From Levilactobacillus acidifarinae DSM 19394 = JCM 15949 (lineage in GTDB: Bacteria > Bacillota > Bacilli > Lactobacillales > Lactobacillaceae), in NCBI RefSeq assembly GCF_001434835.1, contig NZ_AZDV01000005.1:329178-393177 (forward strand): 64,000 bases of DNA, given 5' to 3'. The notes under the pieces were generated by a model. The model saw only the letters and a list, made by a program, of their open reading frames with translations, searched no databases and was not told the origin of the DNA. The translations under genes were made by a program, and so were the position numbers. Positions 13,833 through 61,977 of this stretch are shown in pieces; the first letter of the stretch is position 1; each line of letters starts with the position of its first letter.

Positions 13833-13903
13833 GCCGGCCAGGACTTGACGGTGATGGTAGAATAAAGGGACTTATCGGAGTATTGACTAAGATAAAACTG
13901 GTC

Positions 13904-14061
13904 GCCTTGCGGCGCTCAGGGGCTGGAACGCCTGCGGGCACGATTTGAAGCCCCGTAAAACCCACGGGTCTTCAAACTCGACCTTATGGTAAGCTGACAA
14001 AGAACGTCGACTAACCATAATTTCGCGGGCTGAGCCCCTGAGCCCCTGAGCGCCTCCAGGC
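13904..14061 (+). repeat. Structured intergenic repeat, copy A
   Basis: A 14-bp perfect closing stem, GGCGCTCAGGGGCT (13911-13924) with AGCCCCTGAGCGCC (14041-14054), is extended by GCCT/AGGC. It encloses hairpin 1 (TTTGAAG 13944-13950 with CTTCAAA 13970-13976, and CCCGT/ACGGG inside) and hairpin 2 (TTATGGT 13984-13990 with ACCATAA 14014-14020, then further pairs). The block GGCTGGAACG...CGGGCACG is shared with the other copies. No T tract follows, so it is not a plain terminator. The rest of the 413-base gap before Dus shows nothing clear. Confidence 0.8.
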
Positions 14062-14245
14062 TGAAGTAAGTGGTGACCACGACGAAATCGTTAATGAATT
14101 TAAGCGTGGTAAGGCTTTCCAGTTGCTCAGTGAAATCTTACGATAAGGTGAGTTCTATTTTAATCATATTACGTGTAACTCTTGTGCCGCAGTAGCCAGC
14201 ACCGTGGCACGGACTATCTTATAATTAAACAAGGAGATTTTTATC

Positions 14246-21405: not shown

Positions 21406-23148
21406 TTGCTCAAACGCTGGTTAAGTGTTGGTGTTGTCATGTTAATCATGGGTCTGACTAGTGGTGTGACTGCACATGCCGACAGTGCTGAAGATCACGC
21501 ACTAGCCACGGCCCCGGCTGGAATGACGTTGACGGGGGACGACGCATCCTTGACCACGTCCGACCAAGCGGCCAATCAGGCGGGATTTGTGCCAATCCGG
21601 CACGGTCAAGCCGTGGCCCTGACCACGGGCGAGGCTCAAGCCGGTGCGGTCTGGTCGACGAACACCCACGCCTTTCATTTGACGCAAAATCAAACCATTG
21701 CGGCGTGGGTCTACCTCGGGTGTGGTCAGCAAGCCAGTGACGGACTGGCCTTTGTTCTGCAGAACGATTCACGGATGGTCAACGCCACACCGCAATTTGG
21801 CGCAACGCCCATCGGGGAAACCCTGGGTGTTTGGGGCATCGATGCCGATCCGTTTCCGGCTACCGCGACGGCGCTTAGTCGCACGGCGATTCAAAATAGC
21901 TGGGCACTGGCGTTATCGACCGGACGGCACACGCAGGCCAACGCGACCGCCCCGGGCCAAGCCAACTCGTTTGACTTAGGTGCAACGACGCCCTACCTGG
22001 CGGCCGGTTATCCGGGCAGTGGCACGACCTATCAACGCCACAAGGTTTCCGGCACGCTTGGCGGCTTGCTAACACCGAACCGTTACTACTATAGTTTGGC
22101 GTTACAGGGACGCTTAGCGGTTCCCAACTTGGCTAACGGTCAGTGGCACCACGTCACGTTGCGGTGGCGAGCAGCTACGCACACGATGACGGTGATCGTC
22201 AACGACCGTCAGGCCACAACGAATGCGGCCGAGTCCGGGACTCGGCGGACTGTTAACGTTGACTTAAATCGGGTTGATCCCAACCATACGGGGTATGCGC
22301 GTTGGGGACTGACGGCGGCGACCAGTACGGGAGTTACCGCGCCCACTCTGGCCGTTTTGACGCAGAGTCCGCGTCAACCGAAGCAGGTGACCTCGGCGGT
22401 TAAACCGCAGTCGAAGCCTAAAATGACCACCCGTGCGACCAACGCCCACGCTGCCGTAACCGTGACGAGTCACCGGTCCGTTCAAGTACCGAGCACGCAC
22501 CCCACGACCGTCACGGGTCGGGTGACGCCGACAGGGACGGCGTCGGCCCGGCCGACCGTGCAGGTCACGTTGAACGGCCAGCGGTTAGCGACGACTAAGC
22601 CGCAACCCAACGGAAAGTTTGCCGTGACGATTGATGCGGCTCAGTTGCGGCCCGGAACCGATCGAGTCAAGTTAGTGGCTCAGACGGCGACTCGCCGGAC
22701 CGAACCAACGACCGTCGCCTTACACGTTGCGGGAAAGTTAACGTTTGCGGCCTTATCGACGGCGCCGGGGTTTCAAAAGATGCCGGTGGCGACCAAGAAC
22801 GAACTGGTTACGCGGCAACCCGGCTGGCAGATTGTGGTGCAAGATACCCGGGGAACCGGGAGTCGATGGACGTTATCGGCGCAGTCCGGGACGTTTGTGA
22901 ACGAGACAACCGGGCGGCCGATGGCGGGCGCACCGGTCTACGTGACGGATGGCACGATGACGCCGTTGAGTCGGGTGCCGACGACCATCATGACGCACAC
23001 CACCAACGATGCTCAGGCCGATGGGAAGACTAACGTGCTGGCCCAGTGGTCGGCGAAGACGGGAATTTTACTACACGCCCAGCCCGGGACAGCGGCTGGG
23101 CGGTACCACGGCACGATTACCTGGACGTTAAATAATGCACCGGAATAA
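21406..23148 (+). CDS. L-type lectin-like WxL surface protein 1
   Basis: 580 residues: signal peptide, an L-type lectin-like domain (about 27-310, with DGLAFVLQND, GETLGVWG and a WHHVTLRW strand), a linker rich in T/K/P, an Ig-like repeat (about 355-440) and a C-terminal WxL domain. Both motifs are intact: RWTLSAQ and ITWTLNNAP. TTG start with GGGGGCAG upstream. It is a CscC-type partner of the DUF916 protein, displayed on the wall and probably glycan-binding by inference. Paralogous over its whole length to the next gene. Confidence 0.88.
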   Translation: MLKRWLSVGVVMLIMGLTSGVTAHADSAEDHALATAPAGMTLTGDDASLTTSDQAANQAGFVPIRHGQAVALTTGEAQAGAVWSTNTHAFHLTQNQTIAAWVYLGCGQQASDGLAFVLQNDSRMVNATPQFGATPIGETLGVWGIDADPFPATATALSRTAIQNSWALALSTGRHTQANATAPGQANSFDLGATTPYLAAGYPGSGTTYQRHKVSGTLGGLLTPNRYYYSLALQGRLAVPNLANGQWHHVTLRWRAATHTMTVIVNDRQATTNAAESGTRRTVNVDLNRVDPNHTGYARWGLTAATSTGVTAPTLAVLTQSPRQPKQVTSAVKPQSKPKMTTRATNAHAAVTVTSHRSVQVPSTHPTTVTGRVTPTGTASARPTVQVTLNGQRLATTKPQPNGKFAVTIDAAQLRPGTDRVKLVAQTATRRTEPTTVALHVAGKLTFAALSTAPGFQKMPVATKNELVTRQPGWQIVVQDTRGTGSRWTLSAQSGTFVNETTGRPMAGAPVYVTDGTMTPLSRVPTTIMTHTTNDAQADGKTNVLAQWSAKTGILLHAQPGTAAGRYHGTITWTLNNAPE

Positions 23149-23404
23149 CCAGGTGCGCGAAAAATGGTCTTAAATATTGATTTTAATTGCGTTAAGTCCG
23201 TAATTAAACTTGAACGCGCTATGATAAGAATTGTGATTAGTTTACATGATCGGCGGTTGCCATTTGGAAATCGTCGCACAAGCCGGTTAATCGACCAATT
23301 GGCCGGTTTGGCGGGCAACAGATGTTAAGTATGATAATTAACCCGGACACTGCCGTGAGCAACGGAACGCTTCGGGCGGATTGATGAAGAAGGGGGAATT
23401 AGAA

Positions 23405-25534
23405 ATGCTGAAACGGTGGTTATGCGTTGGCTTAGCAGCCATTATGGTGGGACTCGCTGGTGGCAGCCAGGCCCACGCCGATACCGACTTTGATCAGGCC
23501 TTAGCGACGGCCCCGCAAGGTATTTCGTTGAATAAAGCTAATTCGATCATCGCCTTGGGAACGGCTCCCATGAGCACGGCGTCGGTGGATGACGTGACCA
23601 ATCCGGATTCACCGGGGACCCAGGCGGTCGTCGTCAATACCGCCCCGTATCAATTTGGGACGGCGTGGTCGACGGATGAGAATTCCATTGACCTGACTCA
23701 CAATCAAAGCATTGGATTCTGGTTTTACTTTGGGAATCAGGGCATTAATGCTGGTGACGGCATGGCCTTTGTTCTCCAGAACGATCCGAAAGGGATTGCC
23801 GCAACGCCACAGTTTACGGACCGACCAATCGGTGAAACGTTGGGGGTTTGGGCCGTGGATACGGATCCCGATCAAGCCTACGTCAGTTCCTTTGCCAAGA
23901 CGGCGATTCAAAATAGCTGGGCTTTGGAATTCGATACGCACTACAATGGCTTGTCCGGTAAGAGTGCTTTAGGAACGGCGAACGCCTTTGATATTGGTGA
24001 TCCGGCCGTGCATATTGCCTCGAACTATCCGGGCAGCGGGGATACCTACGTCAAGCGGACCGTTTCCGGTGGGTTGCTGGGCAAGGATCACTACTATTAC
24101 AGCATGACTCATAACGGGGTCATCTCGGATAGTAGCCAGCCCAACTTCCTGTCAAATGGGCAGTGGCACCACATGACCTTGAAGTGGGATGCCTCGGCGA
24201 AGACCATGACTTATACCTTTAACGACCGGAACCCGAAGACGGGAGTCGCCCAAAGTGGGACTAGCCAGACTGTCCCAATCGACCTCAGTAAGATCGACCC
24301 CGACAACACGGGGCACGCACGGTGGGGCTTTACTGGGACCACGGGTCAGGACTACGAAAATAACCTGATTGTACTGGATAACACGCCGGGCCTGGTAGAC
24401 GGGACCGCGGACGCCAGTATGCAGGATCTGACCCACAATCACGCTATTACCAAGGACAGCCAGATTGTTAGTGGCGACCAGGTCGAGTTGGACTATAAGT
24501 TACATTACAATGGCGGGCGACAATCTTGGTCGAACATCAATAGTCGGTTGAATCTGCCGAAGGGGATTACCTATAAATCGGCCGAAATCGATTACGCTAA
24601 GGGGTCGAAGCAGACCTTAAACGTTAGTGATATGAGCAATAACAAGTTGACCATGACGTTGGCCCAGTCACTAGACAGTCAGAATAATGAAGCGACGGTC
24701 AAGTTACTCGGTCAGGCGAACGACGTGCCGGAAACGGTCTATAATCCCGCGTTATCGAGTACCTTCTCGTCTAACGCGTTGGTAACCAACGCTGATACAC
24801 CATCGTTTGCGATCAACCCCAACGTTGACTTGGATTTGAAAGTCACGTCGGGTAATCCGGTGACCTTAAAGACCAAGGAAGACACGACCGTTACGGGGAA
24901 CGTGGCCATAACCACGACGGCCAGCACCAAGCCGACCGTTAACGTGCAAGGCAAGCTGAACGGTCAGGCGCTACCGGATACGCCGGTTGCCAGCGATGGC
25001 ACCTTTAAGTTGAACCTGACGGCGGATCAACTGCAAATGGGGACGAATACGTTAAAGTTGACAGCGACGACGCCCCACGGTGATACGTCTAAGACGGTGA
25101 CGGTCTTGATTACCGTGGTGGGCACCCTGGAATTTGGGGACGTTGACGGGACCAGTAGTTTTGTCACGAGTACCTTGACGGGGACCCAGCAGCTGGTTTC
25201 GCGGAACAAAGATTGGGGTATCGAGGTCAAAGATACCCGGGGAACCGGGCAGCAATGGTCGTTAAGTGCCCAGAGCACGTCCTTTACCGACAATTCGGGC
25301 CACACCCTAAGTGGCGGACCGGTGTACGTCGGAAGCTACGGCACGCAGCCACTCAATGGTCACGCCGTGCAGATCATGACGCACACGACCAACGACAGTA
25401 CCGACGATGGTCAGGTGAACGTGGCCAATGACTGGGGAGACCGTAGCGGGGTTTTGCTGGACGTTGGTGGTGACACGTTATCCGGGACGTACCACGGCAC
25501 GATTACCTGGACGTTAGCCAACGCGCCGAGCTGA
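23405..25534 (+). CDS. L-type lectin-like WxL surface protein 2
   Basis: About 709 residues: signal peptide, L-type lectin domain (DGMAFVLQND, GETLGVWA, WHHMTLKW), an added DUF11-like beta domain (about 335-450) absent from paralog 1, an Ig-like domain, and a WxL domain with QWSLSAQ and ITWTLANAP. I start at the ATG at 23405, 7 bases after AGGGGGAA, rather than at the TTG at 23381. The two proteins look like a duplication followed by domain gain or loss. Confidence 0.88.
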   Translation: MLKRWLCVGLAAIMVGLAGGSQAHADTDFDQALATAPQGISLNKANSIIALGTAPMSTASVDDVTNPDSPGTQAVVVNTAPYQFGTAWSTDENSIDLTHNQSIGFWFYFGNQGINAGDGMAFVLQNDPKGIAATPQFTDRPIGETLGVWAVDTDPDQAYVSSFAKTAIQNSWALEFDTHYNGLSGKSALGTANAFDIGDPAVHIASNYPGSGDTYVKRTVSGGLLGKDHYYYSMTHNGVISDSSQPNFLSNGQWHHMTLKWDASAKTMTYTFNDRNPKTGVAQSGTSQTVPIDLSKIDPDNTGHARWGFTGTTGQDYENNLIVLDNTPGLVDGTADASMQDLTHNHAITKDSQIVSGDQVELDYKLHYNGGRQSWSNINSRLNLPKGITYKSAEIDYAKGSKQTLNVSDMSNNKLTMTLAQSLDSQNNEATVKLLGQANDVPETVYNPALSSTFSSNALVTNADTPSFAINPNVDLDLKVTSGNPVTLKTKEDTTVTGNVAITTTASTKPTVNVQGKLNGQALPDTPVASDGTFKLNLTADQLQMGTNTLKLTATTPHGDTSKTVTVLITVVGTLEFGDVDGTSSFVTSTLTGTQQLVSRNKDWGIEVKDTRGTGQQWSLSAQSTSFTDNSGHTLSGGPVYVGSYGTQPLNGHAVQIMTHTTNDSTDDGQVNVANDWGDRSGVLLDVGGDTLSGTYHGTITWTLANAPS

Positions 25535-30141: not shown

Positions 30142-30169
30142 GTCGCCCTCCGGTGCTCAGGGGCTGGAG
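30142..30169 (+). repeat. Fragment of the structured repeat family, copy B
   Basis: GTGCTCAGGGGCTGGA (30153-30168) and flanking CGTCGCC match the left end of copy A. The rest of the element is missing. It lies between the T-box terminator and the MetE-like gene. Confidence 0.6.
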
Positions 30170-39558: not shown

Positions 39559-39734
39559 CTGGAGGTAACCTTGAGGTGTGCACTTCCGGATCAGTCAAAA
39601 ACGGGCTGGAACGGGGTGGGCACGGATTTGAGCCCGAAAACCAGGTCTCAAATACCGACCTTTGTCTAGGTCGGCTAAAAAACGCCGGCCAAGACAAATT
39701 TCACTCCTGAGCCCATTTTTGACTGGTCCTCCAG
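39559..39734 (+). repeat. Structured intergenic repeat, copy C
   Basis: Outer stem CTGGAGG (39559-39565) with CCTCCAG (39728-39734). Closing stem AGTCAAAAACGGGCT (39593-39607) with AGCCCATTTTTGACT (39710-39724), 14 of 15 pairs. Hairpin 1: ATTTGAG (39626-39632) with CTCAAAT (39647-39653). Hairpin 2: TTTGTCT..GG.CGGC (39661-39675) with GCCGgCC.AGACAAA (39684-39698). It shares GGGCTGGAACG and GGGCACGG with the other copies. Confidence 0.8.
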
Positions 39735-39882
39735 TTGAGAGTGACTGCGTTGCCAGCGCTACTCATGTATTAGGCATTATTGAATGGTTATCATTTCGCA
39801 TGAGTTGACGGTTTGGTAACTTATAAACGGGTGATTATTGTGTTGCCACTAAAACGATTGTAATTTGATTCGCTAGTGTTCA

Positions 39883-40032
39883 GCCTGGAGGCGAGCAGGG
39901 GCTCAGCCAGCGAAATTATTCTTAGGTGGCGTTTTATGCCGCCTTAGAATAAGGTCGAGTTTTGAAACTCGTGATTTTTGCGAGGTTCAAAATCGTGCCC
40001 GCAGGCGTTCCAGCCCCTGATCGCCGGAAGGC
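39883..40032 (-). repeat. Structured intergenic repeat, copy D (inverted)
   Basis: This is the same type as copy A on the opposite strand. The closing stem GGCGAGCAGGGGCT (39890-39903) with AGCCCCTGATCGCC (40012-40025) has 13 of 14 pairs. Hairpin 2 is TTATTCTTAGGTGGC (39916-39930) with GCCGCCTTAGAATAA (39938-39952). Hairpin 1 has CTCG/CGAG where copy A has CCCGT/ACGGG, so pairing is kept with changed bases. About 150 bases separate it from copy C. Confidence 0.8.
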
Positions 40033-40111
40033 GGCCAGTTTGATTCTGATGGAATGGTATATGCTAAACCCCATAAGTAATTGTGAAGTTTTCAAGACTT
40101 TCAGGGTCAGA

Positions 40112-61465: not shown

Positions 61466-61552
61466 TGTCGTCGGTTAAGTTTAGAGGCCGGTAGCGCGGA
61501 TAAATAGTGAGCTGATTCGCCGGTAAGTACTAGGGCCTGTCTTGAAAGACTA

Positions 61553-61723
61553 AGCTGGAGGATTCAGCGCTTCCGGGCCAGTCAGCAACGGGCTGGAACG
61601 GGGTGGGCACGGCTTCAAGCCCACAAATCAGGTCTTGAAGACCGGCCTTTGTCTAGGCCGGTAAAAAAACACCGGCCAACACAAATCTCACCCCTGAGCC
61701 CATTTCTGACTGACCCTCCAGCT
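61553..61723 (+). repeat. Structured intergenic repeat, copy E
   Basis: Outer stem AGCTGGAGG (61553-61561) with CCTCCAGCT (61715-61723), perfect. Closing pairs AGTCAG/CTGACT and GGGCT/AGCCC. Hairpin 1: CTTCAAG (61613-61619) with CTTGAAG (61634-61640). Hairpin 2: TTTGT..GGCCGGT (61648-61662) with ACCGGCC..ACAAA (61671-61685). Close to copy C in sequence. The remainder of the gap to 61977 is AT-rich with nothing clear. Confidence 0.82.
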
Positions 61724-61977
61724 CACACGAGTTATAACAACAATTAAACCAAATTTTTTCAACTAAGAGGTCATGAATGACCATTTAAATCTGTGCTAAA
61801 GTTTTAAGATAGGCCCTAGCGATTTATGAAAATCCAACAGGTCATTATCCATCAACAGGGTACCCTTAAATCGGTGATATACCGGGTATGCGGGACACTT
61901 TTTTTGGATATAACAGGCCCTAAAGTATACGGAATTCTAATATTTCTAAAGGTGCGCTAAGGTTCTTGGGTTATTCC

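Follow-up and report, generated by a model that had tools for sequence, protein, structure and literature searches.

The window analysed here is a 64,000-nt stretch of the Levilactobacillus acidifarinae DSM 19394 genome (contig NZ_AZDV01000005.1, positions 329,178 to 393,177). It carries four copies (A, C, D and E) and one fragment (B) of a structured repeat, at the following positions:

Copy A, 13893–14067, + strand: single structured arm, type II (longer hairpin 1); cmsearch 126.6 bits, fold z −7.0
Fragment B, 30142–30168, + strand: 27-nt repeat, left end only; 89% identical to copy A
Copy C, 39576–39741, + strand: type I arm, left partner in the convergent C/D pair; cmsearch 169.2 bits, fold z −8.0
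C/D spacer, 39742–39876, no strand: 135 nt between covariance-model matches (spacers of other pairs, 15–413 nt)
Copy D, 39877–40038, − strand: type II arm, right partner in the convergent C/D pair; cmsearch 122.7 bits, fold z −6.6
Copy E, whole unit, 61530–61819, + strand: 290 nt with IS5-type terminal inverted repeats CTAGGGCCTGTCTTGAAAG...TTTTAAGATAGGCCCTAG, from a TIR pair scan
Copy E, 61563–61728, + strand: type I arm within the 290-nt unit; cmsearch 174.2 bits, fold z −7.4

Elements A, C, D and E lie where the first-pass annotation had placed them, and the covariance model recovered all four. The conserved strip GGGCTGGAACG...GGGCACG reported there is present in the sequence, as are the hairpin 2 pairings TTATGGT/ACCATAA (A), TTATTCT/AGAATAA (D) and TTTGTCT/AGACAAA (C). 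The proposed common architecture was borne out by a shared fold, as good as which none of 200 shuffles was found for A, C, D or E (z −6.6 to −8.0). Fragment B exists as a left-end piece, but gave no covariance-model match in the window scan, where the remaining rows were two reverse-strand echoes (20.5 and 15.3 bits) and one row of 8.7 bits. A search of the window against Rfam 15 gave no gathering match; three sub-threshold matches near copy A were far under their gathering scores. Elsewhere in the window, two adjoining large ORFs (21406–23148 and 23381–25534; 580 and 717 aa) have several DNA blocks in common, at 70–93% identity, and resemble tandem paralogues.

The observation of a structured repeat family is confirmed, and the family is larger than was seen at first: neither the convergent C/D arrangement, nor the IS5-like termini of E, nor the 60 model matches genome-wide had been noted. 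In the genome of the window (G000; 2.92 Mb, 30 contigs), blastn matched the A type 19 times and the E type 42 times, and the covariance model gave at least 60 matches, with 82 of 760 candidates scored. The genome G018 held at least 135 (150 of 763 candidates scored). The model, R1, detected the family in 33 of 35 Levilactobacillus genomes, that of the window included; each was scored for 82 candidates, which makes the copy counts floors. Across Lactobacillaceae it detected the family in 124 of 397 genomes, representing 15 of 40 genera. Absence outside the genus is weak evidence, because R1 was trained on one genus. Among the matches listed for a strict DNA pattern (80 of at least 113), the named genomes belonged to Levilactobacillus, Lacticaseibacillus, Schleiferilactobacillus, Companilactobacillus, Pediococcus and Limosilactobacillus.

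Plasmids of Lactiplantibacillus, Ligilactobacillus salivarius and Lev. brevis were matched by other family queries, and by the E unit none. In six plasmid regions the copies fell outside the listed genes (from a table of protein genes only), and one further Lev. brevis plasmid match fell under a gene annotated as peptidylprolyl isomerase. One family query gave no match among phage sequences, and a phage origin was rejected on that result. The elements had also been called purely intergenic, and in two genomes this was borne out: by a simple ORF caller, none of 90 copies lay inside an ORF longer than 150 aa, although two ran into the end of one, with overlaps of 5 and 43 nt.

Although Lactobacillaceae have been sequenced extensively and have uses in food, a repeat with tens to more than 100 copies per genome has no matching Rfam entry. 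No such repeat family was found in the open-access literature searched; a description in subscription journals is possible. For L. johnsonii, the part of the source at hand lists one repeat family, Lac-1, which is located within genes (PMC2267715). As far as tested, the earlier statement that the repeats belong to no named family thus stands. The family may serve as a typing marker.

A conserved fold and its covariation

The fold of each unit is Y-shaped and conserved. The arm, ≈165 nt long, is a three-way junction composed of a closing stem, hairpin 1 and hairpin 2, and the unpaired strips are conserved as well. Two alignments were used. Alignment A1, made with MAFFT and not fitted to the model, comprised 53 of 76 extracted copies (the 23 left out were L013–L019, L060, L066, L068–L070 and 11 further loci); RNAalifold found 43 pairs in it, 31 with two-sided changes. 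Alignment A2 comprised 115 matches (98 distinct sequences) fitted to R1, and all 43 modelled pairs showed changes on both sides. Its cells were paired in 95.7% of cases, compared to 70.2% after shuffling and 32–42% after sliding, and its covariation score was 0.619 vs. 0.163. Two-sided changes filled 1027 cells, against a mean of 280 in a shuffle control that ignores the relatedness of the sequences. Several pairs occur as all four Watson–Crick types, such as columns 176–225 (UA 34, CG 23, GC 22, AU 19). A2 is biased towards the structure by its fitting to R1; A1, which was unfitted, shows the same tendency. The claim that pairing is conserved while bases change is thereby substantiated.

Whether the structure is one of RNA or DNA had been left open. 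One explanation is a structured RNA, for example a small RNA or an element of a 3′ UTR, that was spread by transposition and selected as RNA. Strong covariation, low folding energy and the conservation of stems in place (described below) speak for it. The wobble pairs argue otherwise. Setting aside one constant G–U pair (columns 37–239, 83 G–U cells), the A2 cells contained 3797 Watson–Crick pairs, 29 G–U (0.7%), 75 A–C (1.9%) and 95 others. In 25 tRNAs from the same genomes, scored over 17 pairs, there were 27 G–U (6.4%) and no A–C among 425 cells; this zero is partly built in, since ARAGORN favours pairable bases, a bias to which the G–U contrast (0.7% vs. 6.4%) is less exposed. G–U is thus ≈nine-fold rarer in the repeat than in tRNAs, and also rarer than A–C. 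One-sided and two-sided changes stood at 22:1027 in A2, compared to 23:169 in the tRNAs. Covariation is present, in other words, and tolerated G–U wobble is absent.

The genomic context points the same way. Of 90 copies, 47 had their upstream gene on the same strand, a random orientation by a simple ORF caller (one weak match among 32 in the genome G034 was left out of this count). Convergent pairs of arms, moreover, would leave one arm antisense, and whole pairs flip (see below). The scarcity of wobble and the random gene orientation together favour DNA over RNA structure, and we consider selection as RNA improbable. The two strands are not symmetric, as A–C exceeds G–U ≈2.6-fold; read on the opposite strand, the structure has 1.9% G–U, and an RNA from that strand is possible. 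Covariation, usually read as the mark of RNA function, appears here to report DNA structure.

Convergent pairs and their inversion in place

Copies C and D face each other, and this arrangement is general. In G018, arms were neighbours within 600 nt in 50 cases, 48 of them convergent, with spacings in two classes, 29–53 nt (25 pairs) and 92–299 nt (23 pairs); 99 of at least 135 arms lay within 600 nt of another arm (150 of 763 candidates scored). The same set held no convergent pair 601–3000 nt apart that could enclose a gene, on which ground an autonomous form carrying a gene inside the pair was rejected. The pair spacers examined contained no gene either. Convergence was seen in 18 of 19 pairs in the G017 stretches (after dropping one ‘++’ pair that was one copy split by the edge of a stretch), in 28 of 28 pairs at the A2 loci, some of which repeat a place, and in all nine pairs at the loci from the genome of the window, C/D among these; antisense echoes below 40 bits were not counted as pairs. 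The G034 stretches held only one pair, so the frequency of paired and solo copies differs between species. By eye, the arms within a pair differ in type (I and II), and both types recur across species, which makes the arm duplication look old.

Inverted doublets of palindromic units in intergenic DNA are also a feature of REP/BIME elements. REP doublets are described as intergenic, high-copy, inverted palindromic units with a spacer, whose palindromes are kept by complementary change (PMC2817692), and the present family resembles them in each of these traits. This likeness would suit REP/BIME elements moved by a RAYT (Y1, IS200/IS605-like) transposase. However, the corresponding domain, PF01797, was not found in 12 of the 33 genus genomes that bear the element (G001, G002, G003, G007, G008, G017, G018, G020, G021, G026, G029 and G033), and was present in G011 (five) and G024 (one), both without model matches. 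This distribution does not track the family, and RAYT was rejected as the driver. The ≈165-nt arms are also four to eight times longer than REP palindromes, given as 20–40 bp (PMC3733652), and differ from REP/BIME elements in their three-way junction, two arm types and in-place inversion. We therefore regard a RAYT-driven origin as very improbable.

Inversion became apparent when two sister species, G018 and G017, were compared. Among 37 G018 loci examined, 13 convergent pairs had an orthologous place in G017; seven were in opposite and six in the same orientation. (Beside these 13, L226, with one arm, is absent in G017; L345, whose two arms point the same way, is collinear; and L346 duplicates L327.) At L334, the flanks are collinear at 94.8% and 90.3% identity, while the 399-nt element between them is reversed at 97.7%. 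Identity within the locus was compared to that of the best other copy in the G017 stretches, and three inversions are secure by this measure: L334 (97.7% in place vs. 86.4% elsewhere), L326 (96.5% vs. 84.4%) and L335 (95.9% vs. 85.2%), with reversed copies spanning 370–399 nt. At L326 and L335, the likeness of the two arms lets blastn also align the element in the forward direction, though less well (83% and 78%). Inversion is probable from the alignments at L338 (95.4% in place, 94.6% elsewhere), L324 (one arm only, 92%) and L230 (82–85% in two pieces, 77% elsewhere). L336 was rejected as an inversion of the same copy, since identity is 81% in place and 93.8% to a copy elsewhere. Clearly collinear loci were L222, L320 and L322; L327, L331 and L337 had the same orientation, in partial alignments only. 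Counting full-length loci that clearly hold the same copy, three of six are inverted.

Terminal repeats of ≈15–23 nt were seen by eye at the break points of L334, L326 and L338. Common reads are longer than these repeats, which makes it unlikely that three independent loci were all mis-assembled. Inversion at such short repeats could be the work of host replication or recombination and need no dedicated enzyme. In the second comparison, between the genome of the window and G034, six shared loci (L011, L016, L036, L038, L041 and D) had the same orientation, and only L016 is a clear pair; the evidence for inversion thus comes from one species pair. Invertons are DNA segments inverted between short inverted repeats (PMC11892184), and the family resembles them in the in-place inversion between inverted repeats at L334, L326 and L335. 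In contrast to invertons, its copies are non-coding, have structured arms and are dispersed in dozens over each genome, and the flips were seen between species.

At the site of copy A, the same intergenic place in G034 carries an arm of apparent type I, read from the opposite strand. A simple inversion was rejected here, because the two arms are only 48% identical. Copy A is perhaps one half of an ancestral pair, of which the G034 arm would be the other half.

Mobility, constraint and interpretation

Forty-nine loci of the window's genome were compared with 1.6 Mb of G034, with flanks mostly 80–94% identical. Four aligned end to end (L011, L016, L038 and L041), 21 had both flanks at one place, and 24 were unmapped. 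At 13 of the 25 mapped loci, the copy was missing in G034: at L003, L010, L021, L024, L032 and L046, a copy of 289–339 nt corresponds to 1–35 nt, and at L007, L008, L020, L028, L039, L044 and L047, gaps of 260–605 nt correspond to 45–121 nt. By eye, several insertions, L010, L024, L039 and L046 among them, follow a stop codon and precede the terminator. L024 and L032 are compatible by eye with a TA duplication, with flanks of only 73–85% identity; the flanks in this comparison are too diverged for proof of target-site duplication, and none was established for paired elements.

Copy E lies in a shell with CTAG-flanked GRGYCTGTCTTAAAA ends, a motif with 18 matches in its genome at two mismatches or fewer and none in the control. 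G034 carries an IS with CTAGGGACTGTCTGAAAA ends, in the first copy of which the two ORFs match DUF4096 and DDE_Tnp_1. This IS5-family element occurs at G034:C1:374521–375378 and 347065–347923 (L140 and L139; 858/859 nt), with CTAG-flanked ends like those of E and two overlapping transposase ORFs of 136 or 123 aa and 143 aa. An IS5 transposase may move the E shell. IS5-like ends were seen neither on A-type copies nor in the other lineages read, where the same core has other flanks. Conversely, two copies of the shell, ≈145 nt long, have no folded core (L202:774–917 in G000:C5, and G034:C1:551848–551992); they look like hairpin deletions, and the latter occupies the site of window copy C. With shells that lack the core and cores that lack the shell, the shell is one vehicle of the family rather than its definition.

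The absence of copies from mapped G034 sites, together with the IS5-type shell of E, indicates that the family behaves as mobile repeat DNA. The first-pass annotation had named a mobile MITE as the finding that would speak against its view; signs of mobility were found, but the searches run here matched no known element. Precise excision was rejected: two near-identical L. plantarum plasmids (L262 vs. L268; pAWA2013_3 and pPLAN563) differ by deletions of 279 and 160 nt at short direct repeats, the second of which takes most of one family arm.

These observations bear on a simpler explanation, in which the repeats are ordinary MITEs with palindromic interiors, moved by IS5-type or other transposases. 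Covariation would then arise by correction between hairpin arms during replication, with no functional selection, and the flips would be rare recombination between terminal repeats. E shares terminal inverted repeats with IS5-family MITEs, and its CTAG ends resemble those of the 858-nt G034 IS with its DUF4096 and DDE_Tnp_1 ORFs; the few wobble intermediates fit arm-to-arm correction, and hairpin-sized deletions between short repeats do occur. However, IS5-like ends were seen on a subset of copies only, and the unpaired strips are conserved too.

The changes in copies sitting in place are also informative. In 13 of 19 orthologous arms, those with more than 90% identity, 15 of 1094 stem positions differed, compared to 72 of 1009 unpaired positions (Fisher p = 1.5e-11). 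Seven arms shared between the window's genome and G034 gave 41 of 578 for stems and 90 of 518 for unpaired positions, with the L041 partner chosen by identity and two non-orthologous comparisons left out. Stems thus change more slowly, and settled copies are still constrained, or repaired, as structures. The changed pairs in the 13 close arms were one-sided in 13 cases and two-sided in one, which argues that change passes through mismatches, contrary to the MITE explanation. In the six arms below 90% identity, there were seven one-sided and 22 two-sided, compensated pairs, and window copy D differs from its G034 ortholog by six compensated pairs and one one-sided pair. Taken with the evidence from the ends and the unpaired strips, this makes ordinary MITEs a rather unlikely explanation.

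We consider it most probable (≈0.57) that the family is a BIME-like, invertible structured-DNA repeat, a high-copy, non-coding mobile element of Lactobacillaceae that works as folded DNA. The two arm types, convergent around a spacer, would be like the two ends of one element. A putative trans-acting recombinase or transposase might read the arms as folded single strands (or as cruciforms), move the pair and flip it at the short terminal repeats. A, E and other solo copies would be halves or derivatives, and E would in addition be carried by a shell whose ends are those of an IS5-family MITE.

Other small repeats share parts of this description. Pneumococcal BOX, RUP and SPRITE are small structured intergenic repeats with MITE features, as is the present family, and the ends of BOX resemble an IS (PMC3049150, in the part at hand). 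BOX differs in its modular boxA–boxB–boxC structure, the present family having no Rfam match, and that part of the source describes neither convergent arm pairs nor flipping in BOX, RUP or SPRITE. IS5-family MITEs differ in that here the shell occurs without the core and, in other lineages, the core without the shell.

Integron attC sites are folded single-strand recombination sites that keep their structure while their sequence varies. The likeness to the present arms would lie in that property, and the difference is that the arms of this family face each other. A stronger version of the folded-DNA reading, which we put forward tentatively and think doubtful, is that of a new class of mobile element: the facing three-way-junction arms would be the sites at which a widespread Lactobacillaceae unit, both invertible and transposable, recombines, with a putative recombinase acting on its extruded single strands, and flips may serve as genome-wide switches, at dozens of loci, of read-through from terminators or promoters. 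Should the flips prove enzymatic, a folded-DNA recombinase remains to be found, and each genome holds dozens of candidate switches.

Two further observations concern the surroundings of the arms. The left flank of the type II arms of L222, L223, L226, L228, L229 and L245 is a terminator-like hairpin followed by a common TTCCTACG-like segment, which could reflect either insertion beside terminators or a conserved outer segment. At L339:959–2967 (G018:C1:334458–336466), facing end motifs CGCCTTACCGG lie 2009 nt apart in a segment that gave no covariance-model match. Between them is a 413-aa ORF that, from its translation, resembles an MFS transporter, and may be cargo caught between two element ends.
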